Positions 1-12,001 of a stretch of 12,019 nt of DNA are shown here, one piece after another (position 1 is the stretch's first letter; each line of letters begins with the position of its first letter). The translations under genes and the position numbers were made by a program. The notes under the pieces are model-generated. The model had not been told where the DNA came from and searched no databases. It saw nothing but the letters and a program-made list of their open reading frames with translations. Origin of the DNA: Pseudomonadota bacterium (GTDB lineage: Bacteria; Pseudomonadota; Alphaproteobacteria; Rhizobiales; Hyphomicrobiaceae); contig JAEVZQ010000384.1 in assembly GCA_023392135.1 (NCBI GenBank), forward strand, positions 1 to 12,019, written 5' to 3'.

Positions 1-649
1 GCTCGTAGCCGAGCAGCATGTCTTCCCGCTCCGCGTTGAGCGAGCCGCCGACGAGGAAGAGATCGCCTTGGCCGGCCGCGATGCGGCGCACTGCATTCTC
101 TGCAGCGGCGAGCCCGGCCATCTCCTCGCCCATGAAGGTGCGCGACGAGCCGGTGACGTTGTGCACGACCGAAATGTTGCCGGCGAGGAGGTTCGAGAGC
201 TGGGCAAGAAACAGCGTCGGACGCAGCGCGCTCGGCAGGACCTCCTTGGCCAGTACGCCCGTATCCTCGCGGCCGTCGAGCTTTTCGAGAACGGTGCAGT
301 CGACAGCCGTGTCCCGCTCGCCGCTCCCTGCCGCAACAGCCAGGCCTGTTCTGTCCAGGAGCTCCGGATTGCCGGCTATTCCTGCGTCGGCGAGCGCCAA
401 CCCGGCCGCATACACGCCAATGCGCTGCCAGCCTTCCATTTGCCGCTGATCACTTTTCTTCGGGATCTGCTTGGACAGGTCGAGGGGCACCAGCGGGTGT
501 ACGACATAAGGGGCGTACGCCGTCTCATTCAGCACGGGCGCGTGGCGCGCGGCAGGTGAGAGCAGGGCGGCGTGAGCGTCCACGCCCTCGCCCAGCGAGG
601 TGACGAGCCCGATTCCCGTTATCCAGACATCGCGCGGATTTCCCGGCAT
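1..649 (-). CDS. Ketosynthase-like protein without nucleophile Cys (second fabF2XL-type paralog), 3' end outside window
   Basis: The first 216 codons are present; the gene continues beyond base 1. The start is an ATG at 647-649, 19 bases after the stop of the MDR gene, with only a weak ribosome site. The protein opens with the thiolase-fold motif VWITGIGLVTSLG. It aligns without gaps to the protein at 3030-4250 over all 216 residues, about 65% identical by hand count (140 of 216), so the two are paralogs. Where active FabF proteins carry the nucleophile Cys, this copy reads GEEMAG, with Glu176 in the Cys position, as in its paralog. It is therefore probably not a condensing enzyme itself but a chain-length-factor-like partner of the active ketosynthase at 1748-3028. 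It occupies the place where lpxXL often follows in related clusters. The missing C-terminal half means its His residues cannot be judged. Confidence 0.85.
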   Translation of the reverse strand, partial: MPGNPRDVWITGIGLVTSLGEGVDAHAALLSPAARHAPVLNETAYAPYVVHPLVPLDLSKQIPKKSDQRQMEGWQRIGVYAAGLALADAGIAGNPELLDRTGLAVAAGSGERDTAVDCTVLEKLDGREDTGVLAKEVLPSALRPTLFLAQLSNLLAGNISVVHNVTGSSRTFMGEEMAGLAAAENAVRRIAAGQGDLFLVGGSLNAEREDMLLGYE

Positions 650-668
650 CAAAATACCCCGGCCTTTG

Positions 669-1751
669 TCACAGCGTGACGATGATCTTGCCAAACACCT
701 GACGGCTTTCGAGCCGCTGCAGCCCTGTCTCTATCTGCTCGATCGGGATCACGGTGTCGACGACGGGCTCTACCTGGCGCTCGGCCATCTTGCGCATCGC
801 CGTGCGCATGTTGGCCATCGTGCAGCCGAAGCTTCCGATCAGCCGAAGCTGTTGCTGGAACAGCATGAAGAGATTGATCTTGGCGCTGATGCCGGTGGTC
901 GAGCCGCACGTCACCAGGCGGCCGCCGCGCTGCATCGACAGCATGCTGCCCTCCCACGTGTCTGCGCCCACATGCTCGAACACGACCTCGACGCCGCGCC
1001 GCCCCGTGATCTGCCGGACGCGCCTCTCGAAGCGCTCTTCCCGGTAGTTGATGACGTGATCAGCCCCGAGAGATTTGGCCTTCGCGGCCTTCTCGTCGCT
1101 GCCGACGGTCGTGATCACCGTCGCTCCGGCCGCCTTGGCGAGCTGGATTGCGGCCGAGCCGATGCCGCTGCCGCCCGCGTGCACGAGCACCGTCTCGCCC
1201 TCTCGCAGCCGGGCGTTGTCGAACAGCATGTGCTCCGGCGTGCCAAAGGTGATGGCCGCCAGCGCAGCCCCTGTCACGTCGACACCATGTGGTGCCCGGA
1301 CGGCAAGGCGCGCGGGGATGTTCATCAGCTCTCGGGCGAACCCGTCGATGTGGAAGCCGTAGATGTTGTCCTGCGCCGTGCAGAAGTTGTCGCGGCCCTC
1401 GCGGCAAGCCGGACAGATCCCGCAGGTATGGGCGCCGTAAAGCGCCACGATGTCCCCCGGCCGCAACTGGTTGACGGCCGGCCCGACGGCAGCGATCTCA
1501 CCGGCCGCTTCGGCACCGGCGATGAGCGGCAGCTTTCGACGCGCGAACGCCATGCCGCGCCAGCCCCAGACGTCGATGTGGTTCAAAGCGACGGCGCGGA
1601 TCCGCACCTGCACTTCACCCGGACCGGGTGCAGGCGGCCGCTCCGCTTCGATGACCGCAAGCTGCCGCTCCCCCCGGACCTCGATGGCGCGCATGGAGGT
1701 GCGGCCTGGGGCGTCAGCCGTCCGCAATCCAGTCGGTGCATTCCCTGTCAT
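669..1751 (-). CDS. adh2XL: MDR-family (zinc-type alcohol dehydrogenase-like) oxidoreductase of the VLCFA cluster, probable enoyl reductase
   Basis: A 360-residue NAD(P)H-dependent medium-chain reductase. The start at 1751 is chosen because its ATG overlaps the stop of the upstream ketosynthase (ATGA) and has a good ribosome site; an internal ATG at 1694 is the alternative. A GroES-like domain covers about residues 20-150 and a Rossmann domain about 150-320, with the nucleotide loop HAGGSGIGS at 191-199. The structural-zinc cysteines C110, C113, C116 and C124 are present. The catalytic-zinc ligands are not: the usual Cys position is N57 (ALNHID) and the GHE motif is GAE at 79-81. This pattern fits quinone oxidoreductases and polyketide or fatty-acid enoyl reductases better than alcohol dehydrogenases. 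Rhizobial homologues in the acpXL operon are called alcohol dehydrogenases by similarity. Enoyl reduction during VLCFA elongation is an inference. Confidence 0.88.
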   Translation of the reverse strand: MTGNAPTGLRTADAPGRTSMRAIEVRGERQLAVIEAERPPAPGPGEVQVRIRAVALNHIDVWGWRGMAFARRKLPLIAGAEAAGEIAAVGPAVNQLRPGDIVALYGAHTCGICPACREGRDNFCTAQDNIYGFHIDGFARELMNIPARLAVRAPHGVDVTGAALAAITFGTPEHMLFDNARLREGETVLVHAGGSGIGSAAIQLAKAAGATVITTVGSDEKAAKAKSLGADHVINYREERFERRVRQITGRRGVEVVFEHVGADTWEGSMLSMQRGGRLVTCGSTTGISAKINLFMLFQQQLRLIGSFGCTMANMRTAMRKMAERQVEPVVDTVIPIEQIETGLQRLESRQVFGKIIVTL

Positions 1752-3028
1752 GCCGGCTCTCCCGAGAAGACGACACACGCGTTCTGACCGCCAAAACCGA
1801 ACGAGTTCGAAAGCACCGTACTGACCTTTGCGGCGCGCGCCTCGTTCGGGACAACGTCGAGGGGAATTTCGGGATCGGGAATGTCGTAATTGATCGTCGG
1901 CGGCAGCATGCCATTGCGCAGCGTCAGCACCGAGAGCACGGCTTCGACCGATCCGGCCGCGATCAGCGTATGCCCGACCATCGATTTGTTGGAGCTGATC
2001 GGGGTTTTGTGCAGGTGGTCGCCGAGCACGGCCGCGAGCGACAGATACTCCATCCTGTCGTTTTCCGGCGTGCTGGTGCCGTGCGCGTTGATGTAGTCGA
2101 TCTCATCCGGCGCAACGCCGGCGTCATCGAGCGTCTTGCGGATGGCGCCGATGATGGCCGTGCCATCCGGCCGCGAGCGCGTGCGGTGGTAATCGTCCGC
2201 CTTCTCACCGCAGCCCCGTACCACGGCGAGGATCGGTGCACCGCGGGCGCGGGCGCTCTCGTAGGCCTCCAGGACGAGGGCGCCGGAGCCCTCGGCAATG
2301 ACGAAACCGTCGCGATCCTTCGAGAACGGTCTGGAGGCCTTTTCCGGCGGATCGTTTCGCGTGGAGAGCGCCGACAGAAGCGAGAAGCGGATCAGGCCTT
2401 CGGGATGCACCGTGGCATCCGTGCCGATGCAAAGCGCGGCGTCCGCCTCGCCGCGGCGGATCGCTTCGAGGCCGAGCTGGATGGTGGTCGTCCCCGAGGC
2501 GCAGGCCGTGCAGATCGACAGCGGTTCGCCATAGCAGCCGAAGCGGTCCTTCAGCCGGTCGGCGATACTGGCAAACCTGAGATGGCGCGCCATGTCGCGG
2601 TAGTTGCCGGTGCGTGCGGCCGCCAGCAGCCGGGCGTAGCCACCGGGCTCCGGCTCGGAGCTTTCGTCGTACAAATTCCGGAGCAGCGGCCATTCGAACT
2701 CGGAGGGCGGTGTCGCGACGATCAAGGGGCCGGGAAACGCGCCGCCCTCGATGCGGGCCTCTGCGAGGGCTTCCTCGGCCGTTGCGATCGCCATGGCCAG
2801 CGACAGGTCGTGAGCGGAATACGGGTCGACCTCCATGAAGTCGACGGTACCCGCCACGGTCGATCGCAGCCCTTCCGTGGGGAAGCGCGAGATGCGCTTC
2901 AGCCCGGATCGCCCGGCGATGACACCTGCCCAGGTCTCCGCCTTACCGCGCCCCAGCGAGGTGATGAGACCCATACCCGTCACGACGACGACGCGACGCC
3001 CCAGATGATCACGAACGGGCCTGGCCAT
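1748..3028 (-). CDS. fabF1XL: Beta-ketoacyl-ACP synthase II-type, active subunit of VLCFA elongation
   Basis: A 426-residue FabF-like condensing enzyme, normal in length for the family. The open frame extends upstream to 3157, but the ATG at 3026-3028 is chosen because it begins one base after the upstream stop and the KAS fold begins at VVVVTGMGLITSLG. The full catalytic triad is visible: C176 in TACASG, H316 in NAHGTST and H353 in NKSMVGH. By family it condenses malonyl-ACP with acyl-ACP in the cytoplasm; by context the carrier is AcpXL and the product is the C26-C30 acyl chain of lipid A. It is flanked by Cys-less paralogs, which suggests it works as the catalytic half of a heterodimer, as KSalpha does in type II polyketide systems (inference). 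Its stop overlaps the start of the MDR gene. The 1/2 naming follows rhizobial gene order and could be swapped. Confidence 0.9.
   Translation of the reverse strand: MARPVRDHLGRRVVVVTGMGLITSLGRGKAETWAGVIAGRSGLKRISRFPTEGLRSTVAGTVDFMEVDPYSAHDLSLAMAIATAEEALAEARIEGGAFPGPLIVATPPSEFEWPLLRNLYDESSEPEPGGYARLLAAARTGNYRDMARHLRFASIADRLKDRFGCYGEPLSICTACASGTTTIQLGLEAIRRGEADAALCIGTDATVHPEGLIRFSLLSALSTRNDPPEKASRPFSKDRDGFVIAEGSGALVLEAYESARARGAPILAVVRGCGEKADDYHRTRSRPDGTAIIGAIRKTLDDAGVAPDEIDYINAHGTSTPENDRMEYLSLAAVLGDHLHKTPISSNKSMVGHTLIAAGSVEAVLSVLTLRNGMLPPTINYDIPDPEIPLDVVPNEARAAKVSTVLSNSFGFGGQNACVVFSGEPA
1759..1763 (-). promoter_or_regulatory. Ribosome binding site GGGAG selecting the MDR start at 1751
   Basis: On the minus strand GGGAG lies 7 bases before the ATG at 1751 and inside the end of the upstream ketosynthase gene. 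No comparable site precedes the internal ATG at 1694, so the longer protein with the ATGA overlap is preferred. Confidence 0.55.
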
Positions 3029-3029
3029 T

Positions 3030-4250
3030 TCAGTCCCAATCCGCTGCTTCGAGGAGTGCCAGTCCTTCGCCACGCCAGTGGCCGAACCCGGTGACGAGCA
3101 CGCGGCGCGGCACACCCGGGAACGGCCGCTCGAAACCGGACGCATCAAAGGGCGCAAAGTAGCTCCGTCGCGACACCGCGAGCGCCGCGAGCGCCACGCC
3201 AGTCATGAAATGGGCTTCGACCGAATGCCCGAGGACGGACCCATAGGCGCGAACGGCCGGGGGCCAGTCGCGCGACTCGAGTTGTTTCAGGAATGCGCGC
3301 TCCTGGCTGGTGATCGGCCCCACGCCGCTGGCGCCACTCAGCACCGGCAGCGGTCCCGGACGCAAGCACTCGACGACACGATCGAAAAGTTTCATCGCCG
3401 TGCCGGAGACAGGCTCGGCTTCGCGGCAGGCCCGATCTGAGGCGACGCCCGTAATGGCGGCGTAAGGTGTCACACCCCGGAAAGCGCCGTGCAGCTCCGA
3501 CTCGAGGACGAGGAAGATACCGACGCTGCCCGGCACGAAGCCGCCGTTGCCGTCGCGCATCCAGACGGAACGAAACGGGCCGCGGAGCAGAGAGTTCTCG
3601 AGCTCATAGCCGAGCAGCAGATCCTCGCGCTCGGCATTGAGTGCGGCGCCGACCAGAACGAGGTCCGATTCGCCATGGGCGATGCGGCGCACGGCGTTTT
3701 CGACGGCCGCGACTCCCGCCATCTCCTCGCCCTTGAACGTGCGCGACGACCCCCTGGCCTTGTGGATGATCGAGATGTTGCCCGCCAGCAGATTCGAAAG
3801 CTGGCCGAGGTAGAGCGTCGGACGCAGCCCCGTCGCGAGCACCTTGTTCAGATACACACTCGGCTGCGCCTCACCCCCGATCGTCTCCAGTACCCGCGCA
3901 TCGAGCTCGAGATCACGCTCGCCGTTGCCGGTCGCGGTCACTACGTCGGTGCGATCGAGGAGCTCCGTGTCGCCCGCGATCCCAGCATCGGCCAAGGCCA
4001 ACCCCGCAGCGTAGACTCCCGTCCGCTGCCACTGCTCCATCTGCCGCTGATCGCTCGTCTTGGGGATTTGTTGTGCGATGTCGAGCTTTGTCAGTGGATG
4101 AACGGAGTAGGGGGTGAACCGCGTTTCGTCGACCACCGGCCGCGGCTGCGCGGTGCTCGTGAGGCATTGCCAATGGGCCTCGACACCTTCACCCAGCGAG
4201 CTGATGAGGCCGATCCCCGTGATCCAGACCTCGTGGGGCAATGCGCTCAT
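3030..4250 (-). CDS. fabF2XL: Ketosynthase-like, chain-length-factor-type protein of the VLCFA cluster (Cys replaced by Glu)
   Basis: A 406-residue protein with a KAS fold: VWITGIGLISSLG at the N terminus and a GGFVPGSVG glycine motif near 236-244. The active-site pattern is degenerate. Aligned through the shared G-E-x-D motif (193-196 here and in the active KAS at 1748-3028), the nucleophile Cys176 corresponds to Glu176 in GEEMAG. The first catalytic His (NAHGTST in the active enzyme) falls in SGASGVG, without His. The second His is kept as H342 in GSVLGHS. Loss of Cys with an acidic or amide residue in its place resembles the chain-length factor (KSbeta) of type II polyketide synthases, where Gln stands there. 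The likely role is as a non-condensing partner that shapes the acyl tunnel (inference). Its ATG overlaps the fabZXL stop (ATGA), implying translational coupling. It has a paralog at the left edge. Confidence 0.87.
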   Translation of the reverse strand: MSALPHEVWITGIGLISSLGEGVEAHWQCLTSTAQPRPVVDETRFTPYSVHPLTKLDIAQQIPKTSDQRQMEQWQRTGVYAAGLALADAGIAGDTELLDRTDVVTATGNGERDLELDARVLETIGGEAQPSVYLNKVLATGLRPTLYLGQLSNLLAGNISIIHKARGSSRTFKGEEMAGVAAVENAVRRIAHGESDLVLVGAALNAEREDLLLGYELENSLLRGPFRSVWMRDGNGGFVPGSVGIFLVLESELHGAFRGVTPYAAITGVASDRACREAEPVSGTAMKLFDRVVECLRPGPLPVLSGASGVGPITSQERAFLKQLESRDWPPAVRAYGSVLGHSVEAHFMTGVALAALAVSRRSYFAPFDASGFERPFPGVPRRVLVTGFGHWRGEGLALLEAADWD

Positions 4251-4717
4251 CGGCTGTCCGCCAGTCCGAAGAAGCCCAGTCGCTCTCCCTCACGCCGGAC
4301 ATGCTGCTCGAGAGCGGGCACCGGGAACGGCACCTGCCGGAAGGTCATCTGCGCGTCGCTGACGCGCGTGCCGCCGCGCAGAACTCGTGAGCTCATGACA
4401 GCGTAGCCGGAGCCGGCGTGCACACGCTCTGCCTCGATGGCGAGTTCGTCGCCCGGTAGCACGAACGACCTGAAGTTGGCCGATTTGACGTTGGCGAAGA
4501 ATGGCATGCGCGAAAAACCGTCGAGCGCCAGCAGCAGATAGCCCGAGGCCTGGGCCATCGCCTCCAGCAGCAGCACGCCCGGCATCAGAGCATGGCCCGG
4601 AAAATGGCCTTCGAAGATCGAGCTTTGCTCGGGCACGGACGCGAATGCCGTCAGCGCCGCGCGCTCCCTGTGGAAGGCATCGACCCGGTCCAGCATCTGG
4701 AAGCGTTCGAGAAGCAT
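4247..4717 (-). CDS. fabZXL: FabZ-like 3-hydroxyacyl-ACP dehydratase of the VLCFA cluster
   Basis: A 156-residue hotdog-fold protein, normal FabZ length. The FabZ signature is clear: FEGHFPGHALMPGVLLLEAM with catalytic H38 and, 14 residues later, E52. The family dehydrates (3R)-hydroxyacyl-ACP to trans-2-enoyl-ACP in the cytoplasm. Its place between acpXL and the ketosynthase pair matches the rhizobial order acpXL-fabZXL-fabF2XL-fabF1XL-adh2XL, so the substrate is probably the growing very-long chain on AcpXL. It starts 15 bases after the acpXL stop with only a weak ribosome site and ends in an ATGA overlap with the next gene, so translation is likely coupled along the operon. Confidence 0.92.
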   Translation of the reverse strand: MLLERFQMLDRVDAFHRERAALTAFASVPEQSSIFEGHFPGHALMPGVLLLEAMAQASGYLLLALDGFSRMPFFANVKSANFRSFVLPGDELAIEAERVHAGSGYAVMSSRVLRGGTRVSDAQMTFRQVPFPVPALEQHVRREGERLGFFGLADSR

Positions 4718-4732
4718 GGCCTGATCAGCAGG

Positions 4733-5011
4733 TCACGCCGCGGCCGCCCTGAGGCTGTCGATCTGTGCACAGAGGTTTCGCAGCACGAAGTAGTCCTCGC
4801 TATTGACCTTTCCCTCGTTGACTTGCTCGAGCCAACGATCGAGCGGCACTTCGATGCCGAACCGCCGGTCGATCTCGAAGGTGATGTCGAGGAACGCCAG
4901 GCTGTCGATCTCCAGATCCTTCATGACGTGGCTGTCCGGAGTGATCTCATCGACTGGAATATCGCTGGTCGATGCGATGATTCCGGCGACAGTCTCGAAC
5001 GTTGATGGCAT
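4733..5011 (-). CDS. acpXL: Acyl carrier protein AcpXL for very-long-chain fatty acid of lipid A
   Basis: A 92-residue acidic carrier protein, longer than housekeeping AcpP (about 78) and the usual size for AcpXL. The phosphopantetheine site is S37 in [10 protein letters not shown]. The C-terminal part with [18 protein letters not shown] is the hallmark region shared with rhizobial AcpXL proteins. AcpXL carries the (omega-1)-hydroxy C26-C30 acyl chain that the acyltransferase LpxXL moves to lipid A. The gene is first in the minus-strand operon, and a GAGGGA ribosome site lies 9 bases before the ATG (complement of 5021-5026). It is divergent from the MaoC-SDR gene, with 200 bases between them. 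Identification is strong; it is the best taxonomic marker in the window. Confidence 0.95.
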
Positions 5012-5137
5012 GAAGCGCTTTCCCTCATTGAGCGCGCGATATGCGCAACGATCGCGAGGCCGGGGCCGCCGAGCCTTGCCCAGGGCCCGGCGTGCGGCCG
5101 CCGCAATCCGGCCGTCTAGCGCAGACGCTCAGGGGTG

Positions 5138-5157
5138 CACTTAACCGTGGTCAAGTG
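5138..5157. promoter_or_regulatory. 20-base near-perfect palindrome between divergent operons, candidate operator
   Basis: The left arm CACTTAACC and right arm GGTCAAGTG flank a GT centre; 8 of 9 arm pairs are complementary. It sits in the 200-base gap between acpXL and the MaoC-SDR gene, 54 bases before the latter's ATG and 126 bases before acpXL. On the minus strand the right arm contains TTGACC, which could serve as a -35 box for acpXL, but no good -10 box was found at 16-18 bases. The symmetry suits a dimeric repressor of the TetR or MarR kind. The binding protein is unknown and is not encoded next to it. Confidence 0.45.
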
Positions 5158-5211
5158 GTTCGCCCGCCTCCGTGGCTAACCCCGTCGCAGGAATCATTCG
5201 ATCGTGGACAG

Positions 5212-6429
5212 ATGACAGACAGCCAGGACCGCCTCCTCGAGCTGCAGTTGGGGCAGACCGAAAGCGTGTCGCGGACGATCACGTCCGACGACGTCGCCGC
5301 GTTTGCGCGGTTGTCGGGGGATTACAACGCGCTGCACCTCGACGAGGAATTTGCGGCCCGGACGGAGTTCGCGCAAAGGGTCGTCCACGGCTTTCTGCAT
5401 GCGAGCCTGTTGTCGACGCTCGTTGGCACCAAGCTGCCGGGGCGCGGCGCGCTCTACACTTCGCAGACCATCGAGTTCACGCGGCCCGTTTTCATCGGCG
5501 ATACGGTCGAGGCCCGCGCCACCGTCGAGAAGATCGATCGCGAAACCCGCCTCGTTACACTTTGCACGGAAATCCTGAACCAGCATGGGGAGTGCGTTCT
5601 GCGCGGCCGCGCCCAGGTCAAGGTGCTCCGGCTCGCAGAAGACAACCCGCCGGAGCGGGATTTGGCGCCGCCCCGTGGAGAGGGGCTGCTGGCAGGCCGC
5701 AAGGCACTCGTGACGGGCGCCTCGCGCGGTATCGGTCGTGCAGTGGCACGGCTGCTCGCCCACCACGGCGCCCAGGTGTGGATCAATTATTTCAAGAGCA
5801 GCACGGCAGCGGATGAACTGGCGTCCGAAATCTCAGGAGCAGGTGGCTGCTGCCGGATCGCAAGGGCCGATGTCACCGACCAGCACGACGTCGACCGCCT
5901 TCTCGCGGCGGTTGCCGACGACGGTCGGCTAGACATTCTCGTCAATAATGCCGGTCCGAAAATTCATTCGGCGTCTTTCGACCGGCTCGGCTGGGACGAT
6001 ATGTCCGCAGCCCACGATGCAATCGTCGGCAGTGCGTTTCGCATCACTCAGGCAGCATTGCCCGCGCTCAAGGCAAGCCGTGGCGCTGTCGTCAACGTCC
6101 AGACCTCGGCGGCGCTCGGCCGCACGGCGCACCACTGGCTCCCGTACGTCACCGCCAAGGCCGCGCTGCTCGCCATGAGCAAGAACCTGGCGCAGGAGCT
6201 TGGCCCACAGGGCATCAGGGTGAATATGGTGTCCCCGTCGATGGTCGATACCGATCTCGTGGCCAACGTGCCGGACCGCATGCGGCAGATGGTCGTGGCA
6301 AGGACACCACTGCGGCGGCTGGCGACTCCCGAGGACATCGCCGGTGCGGTGCTGATGCTCGTTTCTCCCTATGCCGCATTCATCACTGGCGAGAACCTGC
6401 TGGTCACCGGCGGCGAAGTGATGGTGTGA
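5212..6429 (+). CDS. MaoC-like hydratase/dehydratase fused to FabG-like SDR ketoreductase
   Basis: A 405-residue two-domain protein. The frame is open back to 5041, but the ATG at 5212 is chosen because the upstream 57 residues are Pro/Arg-rich and unlike either family, and would run through the intergenic palindrome. Residues 10-140 form a MaoC/R-hydratase hotdog domain with catalytic D37 and H42 (SGDYNALHLDEEFA). Residues 160-405 form a classical SDR: TGASRGIG at 168-175, NNAG at 245-248, S299, Y312 and K316. Together they can interconvert 3-ketoacyl, (3R)-hydroxyacyl and enoyl thioesters, so one chain supplies a ketoreductase and a dehydratase. The divergent VLCFA operon lacks a ketoreductase, which this could provide. 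It may instead process the product of FkbH on the ACP two genes downstream. The stop is followed at once by the ribosome site of the FkbH gene. Confidence 0.9.
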   Translation: MTDSQDRLLELQLGQTESVSRTITSDDVAAFARLSGDYNALHLDEEFAARTEFAQRVVHGFLHASLLSTLVGTKLPGRGALYTSQTIEFTRPVFIGDTVEARATVEKIDRETRLVTLCTEILNQHGECVLRGRAQVKVLRLAEDNPPERDLAPPRGEGLLAGRKALVTGASRGIGRAVARLLAHHGAQVWINYFKSSTAADELASEISGAGGCCRIARADVTDQHDVDRLLAAVADDGRLDILVNNAGPKIHSASFDRLGWDDMSAAHDAIVGSAFRITQAALPALKASRGAVVNVQTSAALGRTAHHWLPYVTAKAALLAMSKNLAQELGPQGIRVNMVSPSMVDTDLVANVPDRMRQMVVARTPLRRLATPEDIAGAVLMLVSPYAAFITGENLLVTGGEVMV

Positions 6430-6434
6430 GGAGG
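6429..6434 (+). promoter_or_regulatory. Ribosome binding site AGGAGG fixing a GTG start
   Basis: AGGAGG begins on the last base of the MaoC-SDR stop codon and lies 4 bases before GTG 6439-6441. It supports GTG as the start of the FkbH-like gene rather than the in-frame ATG at 6481, which has no comparable site. It also implies coupled translation with the upstream gene. Confidence 0.7.
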
Positions 6435-6438
6435 GGGC

Positions 6439-8649
6439 GTGTCATTCAGCGACGCACATCAGGGCGCTGAGCGTCTGCGGATGGCTGGCGACGGGGCAGT
6501 GGACCAACTCGTCGAAGCCGCCATCGCGTCGGCGGCAGACTGCCTGCGCGCGGGCGTGCTCCTGCAGGGTATCGATTGGGCCCGTGTCGCGCCGGAGCGT
6601 GTCAGGGCGATGCTCCGGGATCTGGAAGCGAACCACGTGCGTGTTCCGGATTGGCTCACCCGTGCCTTGCTCTTAGCCGGGCATGTCCTGCCGGGCGAGC
6701 TCGTCAGGGCCTTTCCGGAGGAGCTCGCGGCACTGGACGAATTGAACAGCGCCACCGGCACGGCCGACGAGCGGCGCGCGTTTGCGGCGATCCATCGCAG
6801 GCTGCGCCACCGCGAAAGCGGCGAGGGCGATGTCCTCACCGCGATTGTGAAACGGCTGCAGGCGTTGGGTTGGAACGACGAGGCCGCGGAGCTGGCGCTC
6901 TCCTTCCAAGATGAGGCCCCGCGTGTGCTGACGTCTGCGGCAGCTTCACTCAAGCACTACCGCCAAAGTTTGCAGATCGCGCGAATTCGCGTGTGTGGGT
7001 TTTCGACGACCCATACGCTCGCGCAGGATCTCGTCCCGGCATTTGCAGCGCATGGCTGGCAGGCCCAAGTCAGCGAGGCCAATTTCGGTGAAGGCATCGC
7101 CGAGCTGCTGCGCCCGGCTGCGGATTGCGACGCGCTTGTTTTGCTCATGGATTTTGACGGATTTGCTGCGCGCGAATGGCGCCGTACCGCCGATGAAAGC
7201 CTGCGCTTGGTTCGTGAGTGCGCAGATCTCCTTGGCTCGGCGCTGGCCACTTTTGCGGAGCGCGCACAGCAACCGCTGATTATTAACACCATTCCGTCTG
7301 CGCCGGCGCCGACGGCGGGTCTGCTCGATCGCCAGCACGCCCTCGGCTTGCGGTGCGCCATCGATCTCGTCAATCAGCGCATTCTCGACGCTGCCGAGCA
7401 GTCGGGCCGGATCGTCGTCTGCGATGCGGACTCTGCGCTCGCCAGGGTGCCCCTTGCTCACCAGACCGATCCGAAGCTCTGGTACTACGGCCGCATCGCC
7501 TATTCGGCTGCTGCGTCACGCGCGCTCGCCAGGAGATTTGCCGCGGCGTGGCATCTGGTGAAGCGCGGCCCCCTGAAAGTTCTGGCGCTCGACTTCGACA
7601 ATACCCTCTGGGGCGGCGTCTACGGCGACGACGGAATCGATGCGCTGGTCTGTGGCCCGGAGTTTCCGGGCAATGCGTACAGTGCGTTCCAGCAGGAATG
7701 CCTGCGGCTGAAGCGTCAGGGCATGCTGCTGGTCGGGCTCAGCAAGAACAATCCCGATGCCATCACCGTTTTCGAGCGTCACCCGGGAATGATGCTGCGG
7801 GCCGACGACTTTGCAGCGACAGCCATCGACTGGAACCCGAAGCCCGAGAACATCCGCAGGCTCGCCACCGAGCTCAACCTTGGCCTCGACAGCTTCCTTT
7901 TCCTCGACGACAGCCCGCACGAGCGTGAGGCGATGCGTCAGGTGTGTCCGGAGGTGAGCGTGCCGGAGATGCCGGCTGATCCGGCTCAGCGCCCGCTCTG
8001 GCTGAGGAGCCTTGCCGTGACGTGGCCGGCGCGGCTGACGGCGGAAGACGAGCGGCGGGCCGAGATGTATGCGGCCGAGCGCGCCGGCAGGGAGTTCCGC
8101 GCGCGGGCCGTCAGCCTCGCCGATTACCTCCGCGGGCTCGAGCAGCGGCTCTATGTCGGGCCGGTCCGTCCCGAGACACTTTCCCGCATCGCCCAGCTCC
8201 ATCAGCGGACCAATCAATTCAACCTCACCACCGTGCGCTATACGGAGGCCGATCTCGGCACCATGATCGCGGACGAGCCGCAATACCTGGTCCTTTACGG
8301 ACGGGCCACCGACCGTTTCGGTGATCACGGCATCGTCATCGCCGCGACCGCGCGCATCGACGGGACCGTTGCGGAAATCCTCACCTTTCTGATGAGCTGC
8401 CGCGTGATTGGCCGCGAGGTCGAGCGCGCCTTCCTGGGGGCGATGCTAGAAGAGCTCCACCGGCGCGGCGTGCGTGAGGTCACTGGCACCTACGTTCCAT
8501 CGGCGAAAAACGGCCAGGTTCGCGAGCTCTATTCTTCGCTAGGGTTTCGGGAGGTATCGACCGGGCCCGGCCAAACCACCTGGAGCCGGACGATCGGCAA
8601 GGCCGACCTGCCGGGTTCCGACTTCGTCGTTGTTCAATGGGAGACGTGA
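6439..8649 (+). CDS. FkbH-like HAD-IIIC phosphatase / glyceryl-ACP loading enzyme
   Basis: A 736-residue FkbH-family protein starting at GTG. Residues 1-180 are helical-looking and not recognised. About 190-365 is the family's N-terminal domain (CGFSTTHTLAQDL onward). The HAD-IIIC core follows, with nucleophile and acid D385/D387 (LDFDNTLWGG), S435 (GLSKNN), K468 (WNPKPENI) and D490/D491 (LFLDDSPHE). The C-terminal 170 residues are GNAT-like and carry the conserved MSCRVIGREVE block, whose C654 may hold the acyl group. Studied members take 1,3-bisphosphoglycerate, remove phosphate and load a glyceryl unit on a dedicated ACP; some lead to lactyl-ACP. The ACP gene follows with no gap, the usual partner arrangement. 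No polyketide synthase or methyltransferase is visible, so the destination of the C3 unit is unknown here. The actual substrate could be a different phosphorylated acid. Confidence 0.9.
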   Translation: MSFSDAHQGAERLRMAGDGAVDQLVEAAIASAADCLRAGVLLQGIDWARVAPERVRAMLRDLEANHVRVPDWLTRALLLAGHVLPGELVRAFPEELAALDELNSATGTADERRAFAAIHRRLRHRESGEGDVLTAIVKRLQALGWNDEAAELALSFQDEAPRVLTSAAASLKHYRQSLQIARIRVCGFSTTHTLAQDLVPAFAAHGWQAQVSEANFGEGIAELLRPAADCDALVLLMDFDGFAAREWRRTADESLRLVRECADLLGSALATFAERAQQPLIINTIPSAPAPTAGLLDRQHALGLRCAIDLVNQRILDAAEQSGRIVVCDADSALARVPLAHQTDPKLWYYGRIAYSAAASRALARRFAAAWHLVKRGPLKVLALDFDNTLWGGVYGDDGIDALVCGPEFPGNAYSAFQQECLRLKRQGMLLVGLSKNNPDAITVFERHPGMMLRADDFAATAIDWNPKPENIRRLATELNLGLDSFLFLDDSPHEREAMRQVCPEVSVPEMPADPAQRPLWLRSLAVTWPARLTAEDERRAEMYAAERAGREFRARAVSLADYLRGLEQRLYVGPVRPETLSRIAQLHQRTNQFNLTTVRYTEADLGTMIADEPQYLVLYGRATDRFGDHGIVIAATARIDGTVAEILTFLMSCRVIGREVERAFLGAMLEELHRRGVREVTGTYVPSAKNGQVRELYSSLGFREVSTGPGQTTWSRTIGKADLPGSDFVVVQWET

Positions 8650-8904
8650 ATGGGTCCGTCCACTTCGGTCAATGGGATCGCCTACCCGCAGCTTGCGGCC
8701 ATTTTCGAAGACGTCTTCCAGCATACCGAGTCGCTTTCGCCGTCGACCTCGCCGGATGACGTCTCCCGGTGGGATTCCCTCCAGCACATCGCCCTGGTGC
8801 GCTCTCTCGAGGAGACGTTTGCCATCCAGCTCTCGATGGACGAGATGATGGAGATCCGGACCGTCGCCGATATCGAGAACGTGTTGCGGCGGCACGGTGT
8901 TTGA
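8650..8904 (+). CDS. Stand-alone acyl carrier protein paired with FkbH
   Basis: An 84-residue acidic carrier protein whose ATG directly follows the FkbH stop (no gap); a GGGAG ribosome site at 8639-8643 lies inside the FkbH gene. The phosphopantetheine site is S43 in RWDSLQHIAL; the W-D-S-L form is typical of ACPs that partner FkbH-like enzymes, and differs from the EIDSL of AcpXL. It probably receives a glyceryl- or lactyl-type unit from the upstream enzyme, which the MaoC-SDR protein or an enzyme elsewhere then uses. It is the last gene of the three-gene plus-strand operon. Sequence and context agree well, although the loaded acyl group is inferred. Confidence 0.9.
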   Translation: MGPSTSVNGIAYPQLAAIFEDVFQHTESLSPSTSPDDVSRWDSLQHIALVRSLEETFAIQLSMDEMMEIRTVADIENVLRRHGV

Positions 8905-9037
8905 GAGCAGCTGAATCCGCTTCGGGTGACGAGCTCTCGACGATGAAGGCCCAGAAGTGCTACCCGGCTAGAACGACGGCTGCGCCGTCATGTCGAAGAA
9001 GCCGCGCAAGGAATGCAACCCGAGCCCACCGATTCTC

Positions 9038-9739
9038 TCACAATGCGTCGCACACCCGGCTCATCGTCGCATCGAGATGGCGGGCCATGACATTGGCCAG
9101 GCGCTCGCCATCGCGCGCGACGAGCGCCTCGATCATTTCCTCGTGCTCCGCAACCGCCCCGGCCCACTGCGATGGCGTGTCATTACCCGTGTAGCGGACC
9201 CGCCTGATCCTGGCTTGCAGCAGCTCATGCGTTTCGGCGAGGGCAGCGTTTCCGGATGCCTGGACGATGGCGGTATGAATGGCCTGATTGAGCTTGAAAT
9301 ATCCGAGCCGGTCCCTGCTCCCATAGAATTCGAGCATGCGCTGGTGCAGCCGGTAAATGTGCGTGATGGACGCATCGTCCGCACGCTCACAAGCGAGCCG
9401 CGCTGCAAGCTGCTCCAAAGCCTTCAGCACTTCGTGGATCTGAGCGATATCCGCCTCGCTGAAGCGCCGCACGATGGCTCCCCGCGAGGGCACGTTCTCG
9501 ACCAGGCCTTCTCGCGCCAGGGTCTTGATCGCCTCCCGCAGGGGGGTGCGCGAGACACCGAGCAAAGCCCCCACCTGGACCTCGTTGATCCGTGTGCCGG
9601 GTGCAAGCCGACCCTGAATGATGAGATCACGCAGACGATCCACGACCTCGTCATGCAGCGTCCGGCGCGCGATTGGCAGCATGCCTTCCATGCCGTCAGC
9701 CACCGACGGCGGGATGTCACCCGGCGTGTCCGCACTCAT
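9038..9739 (-). CDS. GntR-family transcriptional regulator, FadR/FCD subfamily
   Basis: A 233-residue regulator, normal for the subfamily. The winged helix-turn-helix covers about residues 27-90, with the recognition segment VSRTPLREAI at 62-71. The all-helical FCD ligand domain covers about 98-225 and keeps the likely metal/ligand histidines H155 (NQAIHTAI), H199 (AEHEEMIEAL) and H221 (ARHLDA). A strong AGGAG ribosome site (complement of 9746-9750) supports the ATG at 9737-9739. FCD regulators usually bind an organic acid and repress the adjacent catabolic operon. This one is divergent from the PdxA-family gene, with an inverted repeat and promoter between them, so it very likely controls that gene and perhaps itself. 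It converges with the FkbH-ACP operon and is probably unrelated to it. Confidence 0.93.
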   Translation of the reverse strand: MSADTPGDIPPSVADGMEGMLPIARRTLHDEVVDRLRDLIIQGRLAPGTRINEVQVGALLGVSRTPLREAIKTLAREGLVENVPSRGAIVRRFSEADIAQIHEVLKALEQLAARLACERADDASITHIYRLHQRMLEFYGSRDRLGYFKLNQAIHTAIVQASGNAALAETHELLQARIRRVRYTGNDTPSQWAGAVAEHEEMIEALVARDGERLANVMARHLDATMSRVCDAL

Positions 9740-9802
9740 CCCAATCTCCTACGGCGGCAGTTTTAACGACGCTTGCTCTCCGCCGGTCGTTCAGTGAGCG
9801 TC

Positions 9803-9815
9803 ATGCATTCTGCAT
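9803..9815. promoter_or_regulatory. Inverted repeat, candidate GntR/FCD operator
   Basis: ATGCA-TTC-TGCAT is a perfect inverted repeat with a 3-base centre. It lies 9 bases before the -35 box of the promoter driving the PdxA-family gene and between that gene and the divergent GntR gene. A neighbouring TGCATACAAA (9811-9820) resembles half of the TTGTATACAA-type sites bound by some FCD regulators. Binding by the product of 9038-9739 is inferred from position. Confidence 0.4.
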
Positions 9816-9824
9816 ACAAAATAC

Positions 9825-9852
9825 TTGAATCGCAAGGCGGCACCCATATACT
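9825..9852 (+). promoter_or_regulatory. Sigma70-type promoter for the PdxA-family operon
   Basis: TTGAAT (9825-9830) and TATACT (9847-9852) are separated by 16 bases. Each matches the consensus at four or five of six positions, which is unusually good for this GC-rich genome. Transcription would begin near 9859, leaving a leader of about 25 bases before the ATG at 9883. The inverted repeat just upstream would let a bound regulator block the polymerase. Confidence 0.55.
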
Positions 9853-9882
9853 CGCCGAAACAGGAACACTGGAACGGTCAGG

Positions 9883-10929
9883 ATGGGCCAAATGGAATCC
9901 GGCAGCGGTGATGTTCAGCCCACCATTGCATTCGCGCTTGGTGATCCCGCCGGGATCAGCCCTGAACTGAGTGCGCGTCTCATCGCAGACGCGGGAATCC
10001 GCGTGAAGGCGAGGCTCGTCGTCTTCGGGGACAGACGCATTCTGGAGATGGGAGCGGCGGTCGCAGGCGTCGACGTGGACGTACACGTCGTGACATCGGA
10101 GGACGCGATTCCCGCGGACGCAGCCGGCCCGATCCTCGTCGACCTTGGGAATCTCGATCCCGCGAATGTCACCGCAGGCACGGCCACGCTTGTAGGCGGC
10201 AAGTTCGCCAGCGAGAACTTCCGCCGCGCGCTGCAATTCGCGGCTGCCGGACAGGCCGGCGCGGTGTTCTTCACGCCGTTCAACAAAGCCGCCATGCGGC
10301 TCGCCTATCCCGGTTACGACGACGAAATTCGCTTCGTGCGCGACGTGATCGGCTACGATGGGCCGGCAAGCGAGTTCAATGTCCTGGGTAGGCTCTGGAA
10401 TGCGCGCGTCACGTCGCATATTCCGCTGAGCGCGGTGGCAGGCGCGATAACGGAAGAGCGCATTCTGCGCTCACTCACCCTCGCTCAGTCGTCCCTGCGC
10501 GCAGCCGGTTTCACAAATCCGCGCATCGCCGTTGCGGGGCTCAATCCGCACGCCGGCGACGGCGGCATTTTCGGTCGCGAGGAAATTGATATCATCGAGC
10601 CCGCGGTCGCCAAAGCGCAGCAGATGGGCTTCGACGTCAAGGGCCCTTATCCGTCGGACACGGTGTTCCTGCGCGCAAAAAAAGGCGACTTCGACGCCGT
10701 TCTCACCATGTATCACGACCAGGGGCAGATCGCGATGAAGCTCATGGGCTTCGACCGGGGCGTCACCCTGATCGGCGGATGTCCATTCCCCATCTGCACC
10801 CCGGCCCACGGTACGGCCTACGACATCGCCGGCAAGGGGATCGCCGATCTCGGCGCCAGTCGGGCGGCACTGCTCCTGGCCATCGAGATGGCGGGCAACC
10901 GAAAACGTCCGGATGCGAGAGCCGCGTGA
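9883..10929 (+). CDS. pdxA2: PdxA-family (4-hydroxythreonine-4-phosphate dehydrogenase-like) dehydrogenase, probably catabolic PdxA2 type
   Basis: A 348-residue NAD-dependent dehydrogenase of the PdxA fold. GDPAGIS at 20-26 and TPFNK at 131-135 match the family, and the three metal-binding histidines are present: H179 (SHIPL), H223 (GLNPHAG) and H278 (MYHDQGQ). The C-terminal TPAHGTAYDIAGKG (306-319) is typical of PdxA2-like proteins. The GHTE segment that holds the substrate phosphate in biosynthetic PdxA reads GYDDE at 144-148, so the substrate is probably not 4-phosphohydroxythreonine. Catabolic relatives act on four-carbon sugar-acid phosphates or, as TphB, on a dihydrodiol of terephthalate; the choice cannot be made here. 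The GntR regulator and the solute-binding protein gene favour a catabolic role. A second ATG at 9892 (preceded by AGGA) is an alternative start. Confidence 0.88.
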   Translation: MGQMESGSGDVQPTIAFALGDPAGISPELSARLIADAGIRVKARLVVFGDRRILEMGAAVAGVDVDVHVVTSEDAIPADAAGPILVDLGNLDPANVTAGTATLVGGKFASENFRRALQFAAAGQAGAVFFTPFNKAAMRLAYPGYDDEIRFVRDVIGYDGPASEFNVLGRLWNARVTSHIPLSAVAGAITEERILRSLTLAQSSLRAAGFTNPRIAVAGLNPHAGDGGIFGREEIDIIEPAVAKAQQMGFDVKGPYPSDTVFLRAKKGDFDAVLTMYHDQGQIAMKLMGFDRGVTLIGGCPFPICTPAHGTAYDIAGKGIADLGASRAALLLAIEMAGNRKRPDARAA

Positions 10930-11005
10930 AGATCTTGAGCCCAAGTCCATGCGACGGCTGACCCAACAGCCGCAACTACGATCAACCTGAAGAGGAAATC
11001 GGGAA

Positions 11006-12001
11006 ATGCTCCACGTTCGCCAATTGATCGGTATCGCTGCCGCAGTATCGATGTTCAGTATTCCGGCCGCTAATGCCTGGGAGCCGACGAAATCGATCGA
11101 GTTCGTCGTGACTGCAGGGGCCGGCGGCGGCACCGACAACTTCGCCCGCGTCGTTCAGTCGGTCATCACCAAGAACAAGCTCATTGATAAGGCGATCATC
11201 GTCACCAACAAGGGTGGCGGCAGTGGCGCTGAAGGCTACATTTATGCGCGCGGCGCGGCCGGGGATACCCATAAGGTGATCTTCGGCACCAACAATGCCT
11301 ATCTTCTGCCCTATGTCGCCAACGTCGCGTTCAAGAAATCGGATCTTACGCCAGTCGCCGCCTTGGCGCTCGACGAATTCCTGCTGTGGGTCAATGCCGG
11401 CTCGGAATACAAGACGGCCAAGGACTACATCGCCGCCGCCAAGGCCAAACCCGAAACTCTGAAAATGGGTGGCAGCCAATCGAAAGATACGGACCAGACG
11501 TTGGTGAGCCTCATCGAGTCAGCGGCTGGCGTGAAGTTCATCTACGTGCCCTTCAACGGCGGCGGCCTCGCAGCGGTGCAGCTCGCCGGCGGCCATATCG
11601 ATTCCAATACCAACAACCCGAACGAGAACATCGGCCAGTGGAAGGCGGGCCAGGTCCGTCCGCTGTGCGTCTTCAGCCCAACCCGGCTGCCCGAGGGCCC
11701 GAAGGTCACGGCCGAAATGGGCTGGTCAGACATCCCGCTCTGCAAGGACGAAGGCATTCCGCTCGATAGCTTCCAGATGCCGCGCACGATCTGGTTGCCG
11801 GCCAATGTGCCCGCCGAAGCCGTCGCCTTCTACACGGAGCTTTTCAAGAAGGTGAGCGAATCGCCGGAGTGGAAAGAGTACGTCACACGCACCGTGCAGA
11901 CCGCCCGCTTCATGTCCGGCGACGAGCTCGCCAAGTTCGTTTCCGACGACGAGGCCAAGAACAAGAAGGTGTTCGAGAAGGAAGGCTGGCTGGTCAAATG
12001 A
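11006..12001 (+). CDS. Tripartite tricarboxylate transporter solute-binding protein (TctC/Bug family)
   Basis: A 331-residue periplasmic binding protein of the usual length. Residues 1-24 are a Sec signal peptide (two basic residues, hydrophobic core, AxA-type site ending ANA before W25). The mature part starts with the family pattern: a KSIEFVVTAGAGGGTDNFAR block at 29-48, then IIVTNKGGGSGAEGY. The protein captures a carboxylate in the periplasm for a TctA/TctB membrane pair, not seen in the window; Bug genes are often orphans. An AGAGGA ribosome site (10991-10996) lies 9 bases before the ATG. It follows the PdxA-family gene by 76 bases on the same strand and is probably co-transcribed, so the ligand may be the precursor of that enzyme's substrate. 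A terminator-like hairpin overlaps its stop codon. Confidence 0.92.
   Translation: MLHVRQLIGIAAAVSMFSIPAANAWEPTKSIEFVVTAGAGGGTDNFARVVQSVITKNKLIDKAIIVTNKGGGSGAEGYIYARGAAGDTHKVIFGTNNAYLLPYVANVAFKKSDLTPVAALALDEFLLWVNAGSEYKTAKDYIAAAKAKPETLKMGGSQSKDTDQTLVSLIESAAGVKFIYVPFNGGGLAAVQLAGGHIDSNTNNPNENIGQWKAGQVRPLCVFSPTRLPEGPKVTAEMGWSDIPLCKDEGIPLDSFQMPRTIWLPANVPAEAVAFYTELFKKVSESPEWKEYVTRTVQTARFMSGDELAKFVSDDEAKNKKVFEKEGWLVK

Follow-up and report, generated by a model that had tools for sequence, protein, structure and literature searches.

A FkbH operon co-inherited with acpXL in the Hyphomicrobium family: a possible starter-unit branch of very-long-chain fatty acid synthesis

Introduction

FkbH proteins are known chiefly from the synthesis of polyketide and peptide antibiotics. 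Excerpts of two papers on such systems describe the transfer of a glyceryl unit from 1,3-bisphosphoglycerate onto an acyl carrier protein (ACP) by FkbH proteins (PMC7489565, PMC8949500). The rhizobial acpXL-fabZXL-fabF2XL-fabF1XL-adhXL-lpxXL cluster, whose gene order in Agrobacterium is given in an excerpt of PMC11901934, belongs to the synthesis of very-long-chain fatty acids (VLCFAs). In this study, we examine a window of 12,019 nucleotides (the whole stretch of DNA analyzed; contig JAEVZQ010000384.1 of assembly GCA_023392135.1, Hyphomicrobiaceae), in which a three-gene operon encoding a MaoC-SDR fusion, an FkbH protein, and an ACP faces an acpXL cluster across a common intergenic region.

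The acpXL side of the window has the same order as the rhizobial cluster, with acpXL, a FabZ-like gene, PRK06519-type and PRK06501-type ketosynthase genes, and an MDR-type dehydrogenase gene, and from their position we infer that the two ketosynthase genes correspond to fabF2XL and fabF1XL. Unlike the rhizobial cluster, it is accompanied by a second ketosynthase pair and by the divergent FkbH operon, and no LpxXL was found near it. The FkbH side shares with the methoxymalonyl, tetronate, and mixed nonribosomal peptide synthetase–polyketide synthase (PKS) systems an FkbH protein with a dedicated ACP, the HAD motif, and a conserved cysteine, but its partners here are a MaoC-SDR fusion and a VLCFA cluster. 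No modular PKS and no FabH-like condensing enzyme (Pfam and NCBIfam profiles) was seen among the window genes scanned, nor was an O-methyltransferase or an FkbI/K-type dehydrogenase pair seen in the window, the operon consisting of MaoC-SDR, FkbH, and ACP only. The BryA loading module of bryostatin synthesis combines the same set of dehydratase, ketoreductase, FkbH, and ACP, which in our locus are separate proteins with no modular PKS and would feed a fatty-acid-type synthase rather than a trans-acyltransferase PKS. The BryA set is reportedly proposed to give a lactyl starter. An excerpt of PMC7230173 calls BryA a “putative loading module”.

Co-occurrence of the FkbH operon and acpXL

The association of the FkbH operon with acpXL is far beyond chance at the thresholds used, because the two have an identical presence in the family sample. 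Among 103 genomes from the family of G002, a Hyphomicrobium zavarzinii genome with locus L003 (G and L numbers denote genomes and loci), FkbH (E ≤1.1e-166; next match 2.4e-87) and acpXL are found in the same 23, the other 80 have neither, and none is discordant. Many of these genomes are drafts in which single absences may be false, yet the discordance is zero. FkbH and acpXL share a contig in 22 of the 23 genomes, always in divergent orientation and with 1425-1604 bp between the matches; in G700 they lie on two contigs.

Among the best 80 of 405 confirmed stretches in a contig scan for FkbH relatives, 18 loci (L001-L018) form an ortholog group at 46-70% identity, the next match being at 36%. 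The record titles of these loci name Hyphomicrobium, Hyphomicrobiaceae, Hyphomicrobiales, Filomicrobium, Alphaproteobacteria, and once only “bacterium”. acpXL is divergent to MaoC-SDR-FkbH in 15 of the 18, that is, in all 15 with flanking DNA; in L008, L010, and L017 the available sequence stops no more than 120 bp from the FkbH match. Apart from the block genes, no family of open reading frames (ORFs of ≥90 aa, simple caller) is common to more than four of the 15. An order-level sample of 297 genomes has an FkbH ortholog in 7 (E ≤3.4e-193; next 2.8e-81), all of them among its 78 genomes with acpXL. MaoC-SDR was found in the same 7 and, as a 44% relative, in G180, while 12 further genomes have weaker FkbH relatives only. 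In a class-level sample of 385 genomes, MaoC-SDR matched at E 1e-60 in the centre genome alone.

A preliminary description of the window had proposed a tie to acpXL, and the survey of co-occurrence bears it out as specific and repeatedly co-inherited. It had also considered that relatives might lie beside capsule or natural-product genes without acpXL. This is not so for the close relatives (15 of 15 loci, 23 of 23 genomes), and only a distant trio in G180 sits in a polysaccharide-like locus. That trio (L109, contig G180:C16, 7253-12889) has the same MaoC-SDR, FkbH, ACP order at 34-44% identity (MaoC-SDR 43-44%, FkbH 34%) but other neighbors: genes for polysaccharide-export-like, acyl-AMP-ligase-like, and KAS III-like proteins, a second ACP, and an SDR. 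The acpXL gene of that genome lies elsewhere. The presence of the trio in such a locus suggests that it can serve as a cassette supplying an acyl-ACP elsewhere. L109 also has an ABC-2-type permease gene (3119-4036) and looks like a polysaccharide acylation locus, with names assigned by reading rather than by profile. A remote FkbH relative (~31% identity) is present on 40 Sinorhizobium plasmid records.

Inheritance of the block

The co-inherited block comprises MaoC-SDR, FkbH, ACP, acpXL, fabZ, two ketosynthase pairs, and usually the dehydrogenase gene. It appears from sequence comparison to be retained, lost, and exchanged as a unit, because its presence is scattered on the rpoB tree and its genes covary better with one another than with rpoB. 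The tree, a quick one with Shimodaira–Hasegawa-like approximate likelihood ratio (SH-aLRT) support only, covers 78 of the 103 family genomes (18 had no match and 7 short pieces only), including 20 of the 23 carriers. The carrier label requires 17 changes on it, at least 12 of them forced by supported branches, and shuffled labels need ~18.

Gene distances were compared across the 11 genomes with every gene (L018 was dropped, having no ketosynthase of the FkbH-associated clade, KS-A). The correlations were 0.90 for FkbH/MaoC-SDR, 0.72 for FkbH/KS-A, 0.58 for FkbH/acpXL, and 0.80 for acpXL/KS-A, and as partial correlations on rpoB they were 0.89, 0.69, 0.53, and 0.75, respectively; block genes correlate with rpoB distance at only 0.27-0.45. 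The pair G004 and G006 illustrates this, with identities of 97.3% for rpoB, 91.7% and 79.9% for two LpxL proteins, and 45% for FkbH. No tRNA gene was found in 9 of 10 loci scanned for signs of a mobile element, the tenth (L006) having a tRNA-SeC gene ~7 kb away (19319-19413, minus strand); no integrase search was made.

Ketosynthases of the block

All 12 FkbH-positive genomes examined (of 28 known here) have exactly two strong PRK06501-type matches (E ≤5.6e-114, next 5.7e-66), and all 40 FkbH-negative acpXL genomes examined (of 71) have exactly one at E 1e-100. In Hyphomicrobium-type loci the extra ketosynthase pair lies past the dehydrogenase gene, or past the first pair if there is no dehydrogenase, which in our case is mostly outside the window; in L008, L014, L120, and L121 it lies past the FkbH operon. 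An unrooted PRK06501 tree was built of 76 rows, among which L122 and L124 are duplicates of L014 and L011, respectively. In this tree, a branch with SH-aLRT 99 sets apart the acpXL-adjacent copies of FkbH-positive loci, including that of the window, and the second copies fall together with those of FkbH-negative loci. The acpXL-adjacent clade, KS-A, has a cysteine three residues N-terminal of the active cysteine in 19 of 19 rows. The same position is serine in 17 of 17 second copies, and serine or threonine in the 37 FkbH-negative rows read (of 40). L123 is labeled FkbH-negative in the ketosynthase trees and alignments, as its contig stops before FkbH, though it comes from the FkbH-positive G162.

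The PRK06519-type protein at 3030-4250 has an arginine at the expected active-site cysteine, as read by eye from the alignment. No FkbH-positive row read (33 of 36) has cysteine there, threonine being commonest in the relatives, and two FkbH-negative rows do have it. The pair at 1748-4250 (minus strand) looks like a ketosynthase with its chain-length factor. In L011 and in L013, both PRK06519 copies of each genome group together, as if converted or re-duplicated.

The operon, its catalytic motifs, and the shared intergenic region

The preliminary description of an FkbH-ACP-(MaoC-SDR) operon with no PKS, set against a VLCFA cluster, was confirmed by the profile matches (Table 1) and by intact catalytic motifs. 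The gaps of 9 bp between MaoC-SDR and FkbH and 0 bp between FkbH and ACP suggest by their closeness that the three genes are co-transcribed. The MaoC-SDR frame extends back to 5041 without a stop, and its start was placed at the ATG of 5212, in agreement with relatives. In FkbH, D385, D387, and C654 are invariant in 26 aligned sequences (the window's own included), covering the HAD DxDNT motif and a cysteine conserved in the acyltransferase region at the C-terminus; SCRV is present in 25 of 26 rows of another alignment, with one gap. The MaoC motif GDxNxLH and the SDR motif YxxxK are found in 22 of 22 rows (among them the distant copy in L109 and two loci that are duplicates), and the ACP motif WDSL in 18 of 18. 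An AlphaFold model of FkbH (mean predicted local distance difference test score 82, predicted template modeling score 0.65) has a helical N-terminus (1-176), an SGNH/GDSL-like part, a HAD phosphatase, and a GNAT-like part containing C654. Fold comparison relates parts of the model to 3slr, MDP-1 phosphatase, and GNAT proteins.

A dyad, TTRAC-N4-GTCAA, in the intergenic region is a candidate operator or promoter element common to both operons. It is present with no mismatch in 10 of 16 FkbH-positive loci and with at most one in 12 of 16 (it is lacking in L014, L015, L016, and L018), compared with 0 of 40 FkbH-negative acpXL upstream regions and ~1% of shuffled regions at up to one mismatch, and the window has one exact match against 0.03 expected. 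Because the motif was derived from the very FkbH-positive loci that were scored, the contrast is suggestive and does not amount to a test. A scan of 4700-9100 gave no sigma-70-type promoter and four terminator-like matches (2.3 expected), all within genes and none 3′ of the ACP gene.

Table 1. Features of the window, with the profile matches or remarks that bear on each.
Feature	Coordinates	Strand	Profile match or remark
MaoC-SDR fusion (hot-dog dehydratase/hydratase and FabG-like ketoreductase domains)	5212..6429	+	PF01575 (MaoC_dehydratas) 84 bits and PF13561 (adh_short_C2) 192.6 bits in a single protein
FkbH: helical N-terminus, SGNH-like, HAD phosphatase, and GNAT-like acyltransferase regions	6439..8649	+	GTG start; TIGR01686 264.3 bits, curated NCBIfam cut-off 146.65
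Dedicated ACP	8650..8904	+	PF00550 (PP-binding) 32.6 bits; Ser in WDSL
Divergent intergenic region, acpXL / FkbH operon	5012..5211	.	180-354 bp by match ends in 16 FkbH-positive loci
Dyad TTRAC-N4-GTCAA	5141..5154	.	candidate common operator/promoter element
acpXL, VLCFA acyl carrier protein	4733..5011	-	NF005079 150.1 bits, cut-off 83
FabZ-like 3-hydroxyacyl-ACP dehydratase	4247..4717	-	PF07977 72.2 bits; best NCBIfam matches are FabZ models, under their cut-offs
PRK06519-type ketosynthase homolog, chain-length-factor-like	3030..4250	-	NF005084 515.6 bits, cut-off 320
PRK06501-type ketosynthase of the FkbH-associated clade (KS-A)	1748..3028	-	NF005076 691.4 bits, cut-off 629; ICTACASG motif
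MDR-type dehydrogenase	669..1748	-	PF00107/PF08240
Second PRK06519-type gene, N-terminal part only (window edge)	2..649	-	65% identity to 3033-4250 over 216 aa

The MDR-type dehydrogenase, which has an equal position in many FkbH-negative acpXL clusters, may serve the VLCFA cluster as its enoyl reductase. On the other side of the operon (9041-12001) lie genes for a GntR-FCD regulator, a PdxA-like protein, and a periplasmic solute-binding protein (TctC-like by reading), which are unmatched beside other close loci and have the appearance of an unrelated catabolic set.

LpxXL and the destination of the product

As the window's own acpXL cluster is cut at position 1, LpxXL was judged from relatives. 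In 12 of 12 FkbH-negative genomes, acpXL has a gene for a lipid A acyltransferase within ~6 kb. None of 12 FkbH-positive genomes has one near acpXL, G003 having one 0.8 Mb away on the same contig (G052 and G162 were too fragmented for a judgment of position). In a search with an LpxXL seed, 39 of 40 FkbH-negative loci match at 232-709 bits (the top score is the seed itself, and L164 is incomplete), and 17 LpxL genes of FkbH-positive genomes score 116-142 bits. The LpxXL model NF005120 (cut-off 273) is passed by both FkbH-negative proteins scanned and by none of three FkbH-positive ones, and by 0 of the 103 family genomes, with or without the block, a weaker match being present in 93. The label “lipid A operon” given to the facing cluster earlier is thus insecure. 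The product may nevertheless reach lipid A via a resident LpxL or another enzyme. In an excerpt of PMC5613085, an lpxXL mutant of Bradyrhizobium ORS278 is reported to retain one of its two VLCFAs. Tandem LpxL-family genes (46-49% mutual identity) occur at L170 and L172 in two FkbH-positive genomes, and neighboring pairs also in block-negative genomes such as G704.

Discussion

Our preferred reading, to which we give a probability of roughly 0.4, is that the operon supplies the starter unit to a mobile VLCFA synthase module, giving odd-chain (omega-1)-hydroxy VLCFAs from a C3 starter. By analogy with the described family members, we infer that the FkbH of this locus loads glycerate onto its ACP. 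From the family chemistry, it would take 1,3-bisphosphoglycerate, the HAD domain would remove the phosphate, and the glyceryl unit would pass to the ACP, probably via Cys654. The two least certain steps would follow, in which the MaoC domain would dehydrate glyceryl-ACP to enolpyruvyl- or pyruvyl-ACP and the SDR domain would reduce the 2-ketone to lactyl-ACP. KS-A would then condense lactyl-ACP with malonyl-AcpXL, and the canonical pair would elongate the chain to an odd-numbered (omega-1)-hydroxy VLCFA, for example, 26-OH-27:0 or 28-OH-29:0, with the hydroxyl coming from the starter and requiring no oxygenase. A starter role is the simplest reading because the block has a dedicated ketosynthase, and this extra enzyme argues for chain initiation or extension over ester decoration. 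With somewhat more reserve, we offer the fuller statement that a VLCFA synthase primed by lactyl or glyceryl from 1,3-bisphosphoglycerate may fix the position of the (omega-1)-hydroxyl in a membrane lipid of odd chain length without oxygen. The pathway as a whole would be accessory and mobile, taking the place of the canonical route or supplementing it, and would reach its acceptor other than via LpxXL.

The preliminary description had suggested a short hydroxyacyl unit used as starter or substituent of (omega-1)-hydroxy VLCFAs. The tie to acpXL speaks for this part, and it does not extend to the origin of the (omega-1)-hydroxyl in general; the operon as a general (omega-1)-hydroxylation system is rejected, as 71 of the 78 acpXL genomes in the order sample have no FkbH ortholog. 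The C4 unit it had preferred is also rejected, as it is not FkbH chemistry, the product known from an excerpt of PMC7489565 being a C3 glyceryl-ACP. That earlier account did not include the second ketosynthase pair, the mobility of the block, or the dyad in the intergenic region.

Several points weigh against our reading. The lactyl step is proposed from domain content and the BryA precedent, and our open-access literature search found neither lipid A nor VLCFAs of Hyphomicrobium analyzed, and so no product. Published rhizobial VLCFAs are even-chain and (omega-1)-hydroxylated, as given in an excerpt of PMC7663294, and because those 71 acpXL genomes are without the ortholog, a special starter is unneeded for a hydroxyl of the rhizobial type. 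Nor was an LpxXL found near acpXL or in the family that would point to a destination for the product. KS-A, whose specificity is putative and whose tree is unrooted, could be a plain duplicate, and the PRK06519 tree is less clean, with the copies of L011 and L013 mixing. Weaker FkbH relatives, which we did not count as orthologs, occur in six family genomes that have no acpXL (E 2.4e-87 to 2.2e-32). Finally, physical linkage alone partly accounts for the co-inheritance of neighbors, and we regard the zero carriers of one half as a stronger argument for joint inheritance than the covariation of adjacent genes.

The main rival, which we consider unlikely, is a short ester on a VLCFA with a conventional start. 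The operon would make glyceryl- or lactyl-ACP, and this C3 hydroxyacyl unit would be esterified to the (omega-1)-hydroxyl of the finished chain. Short hydroxyacids on this hydroxyl do exist, as 3-hydroxybutyrate in rhizobia and malate in Oligotropha lipid A, and their attachment is called unexplored in an excerpt of PMC7663294. In the same vein, an excerpt of PMC8949500 describes a vioprolide ester that joins a fatty acid to glycerate derived from an FkbH domain. A patatin-like gene lies 3′ of the ACP gene in L008, L120, and L121 (in L121 at 12163-13608, plus strand), which would suit such a transfer, but no acyltransferase gene is common to the 15 loci compared, with the same ORF limit and caller as above, and the second, distinct ketosynthase that accompanies FkbH is left unexplained.

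Slightly less likely still is an unreduced starter, in which glyceryl-ACP primes an omega,(omega-1)-dihydroxy odd-chain VLCFA and MaoC-SDR acts as ketoreductase and dehydratase in the first extension rounds. It takes the FkbH-family product as it is given in an excerpt of PMC7489565, glyceryl-ACP, and Hyphomicrobium-type clusters have no separate SDR between the ketosynthase and dehydrogenase genes, so that MaoC-SDR could be the ketoreductase there. However, a FabZ-like dehydratase is already in the cluster, and loci of the L014/L120/L121 type have a separate SDR within the acpXL cluster besides MaoC-SDR. This second point makes MaoC-SDR more than a missing ketoreductase and weakens the view that it is merely the ketoreductase of VLCFA synthesis.

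It is improbable that the C3 unit ends the chain rather than starting it, with KS-A joining glyceryl-ACP to a finished beta-ketoacyl chain as a head group or for release. Tetronate clusters condense glyceryl-ACP with a beta-ketoacyl chain in this way, according to excerpts of PMC4979870 and PMC7489565, and with LpxXL missing the chain may have another acceptor; the tetronate enzyme is FabH-like, however, a type absent among the window genes scanned, whereas KS-A is FabF-like, and MaoC-SDR would have no role. That a polysaccharide or natural-product FkbH operon sits beside acpXL by chance, as the distant trio in the G180 locus (MaoC-SDR ~43%, FkbH 34%), away from its acpXL, might suggest, is highly improbable and rejected on the co-occurrence in the family sample, with the identical 23 of 103 genomes, the divergent arrangement in 22 of 22 same-contig cases, and the correlated divergence against it.

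In the open-access literature on FkbH and acyl carrier proteins, we found no title that ties FkbH to lipid A or VLCFAs, though a description elsewhere is possible. In Hyphomicrobium-like bacteria, the FkbH gene set and the VLCFA genes appear to be kept, lost, and exchanged together, which suggests that the VLCFAs of these bacteria are started from or decorated with an FkbH-type C3 unit. Within one family, FkbH is tied in every one of its 23 genomes to a fatty-acid synthase cluster of the membrane type, which points to a lipid use of glycerate-loading chemistry and, if our preferred reading is true, to a genetically testable route that could place a hydroxyl at the far end of a VLCFA with no oxygenase. 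Since 80 of the 103 family genomes are without acpXL, VLCFA synthesis of the acpXL type looks like an accessory and exchangeable trait in the Hyphomicrobium family, and our results suggest that it operates there without the usual LpxXL transferase.

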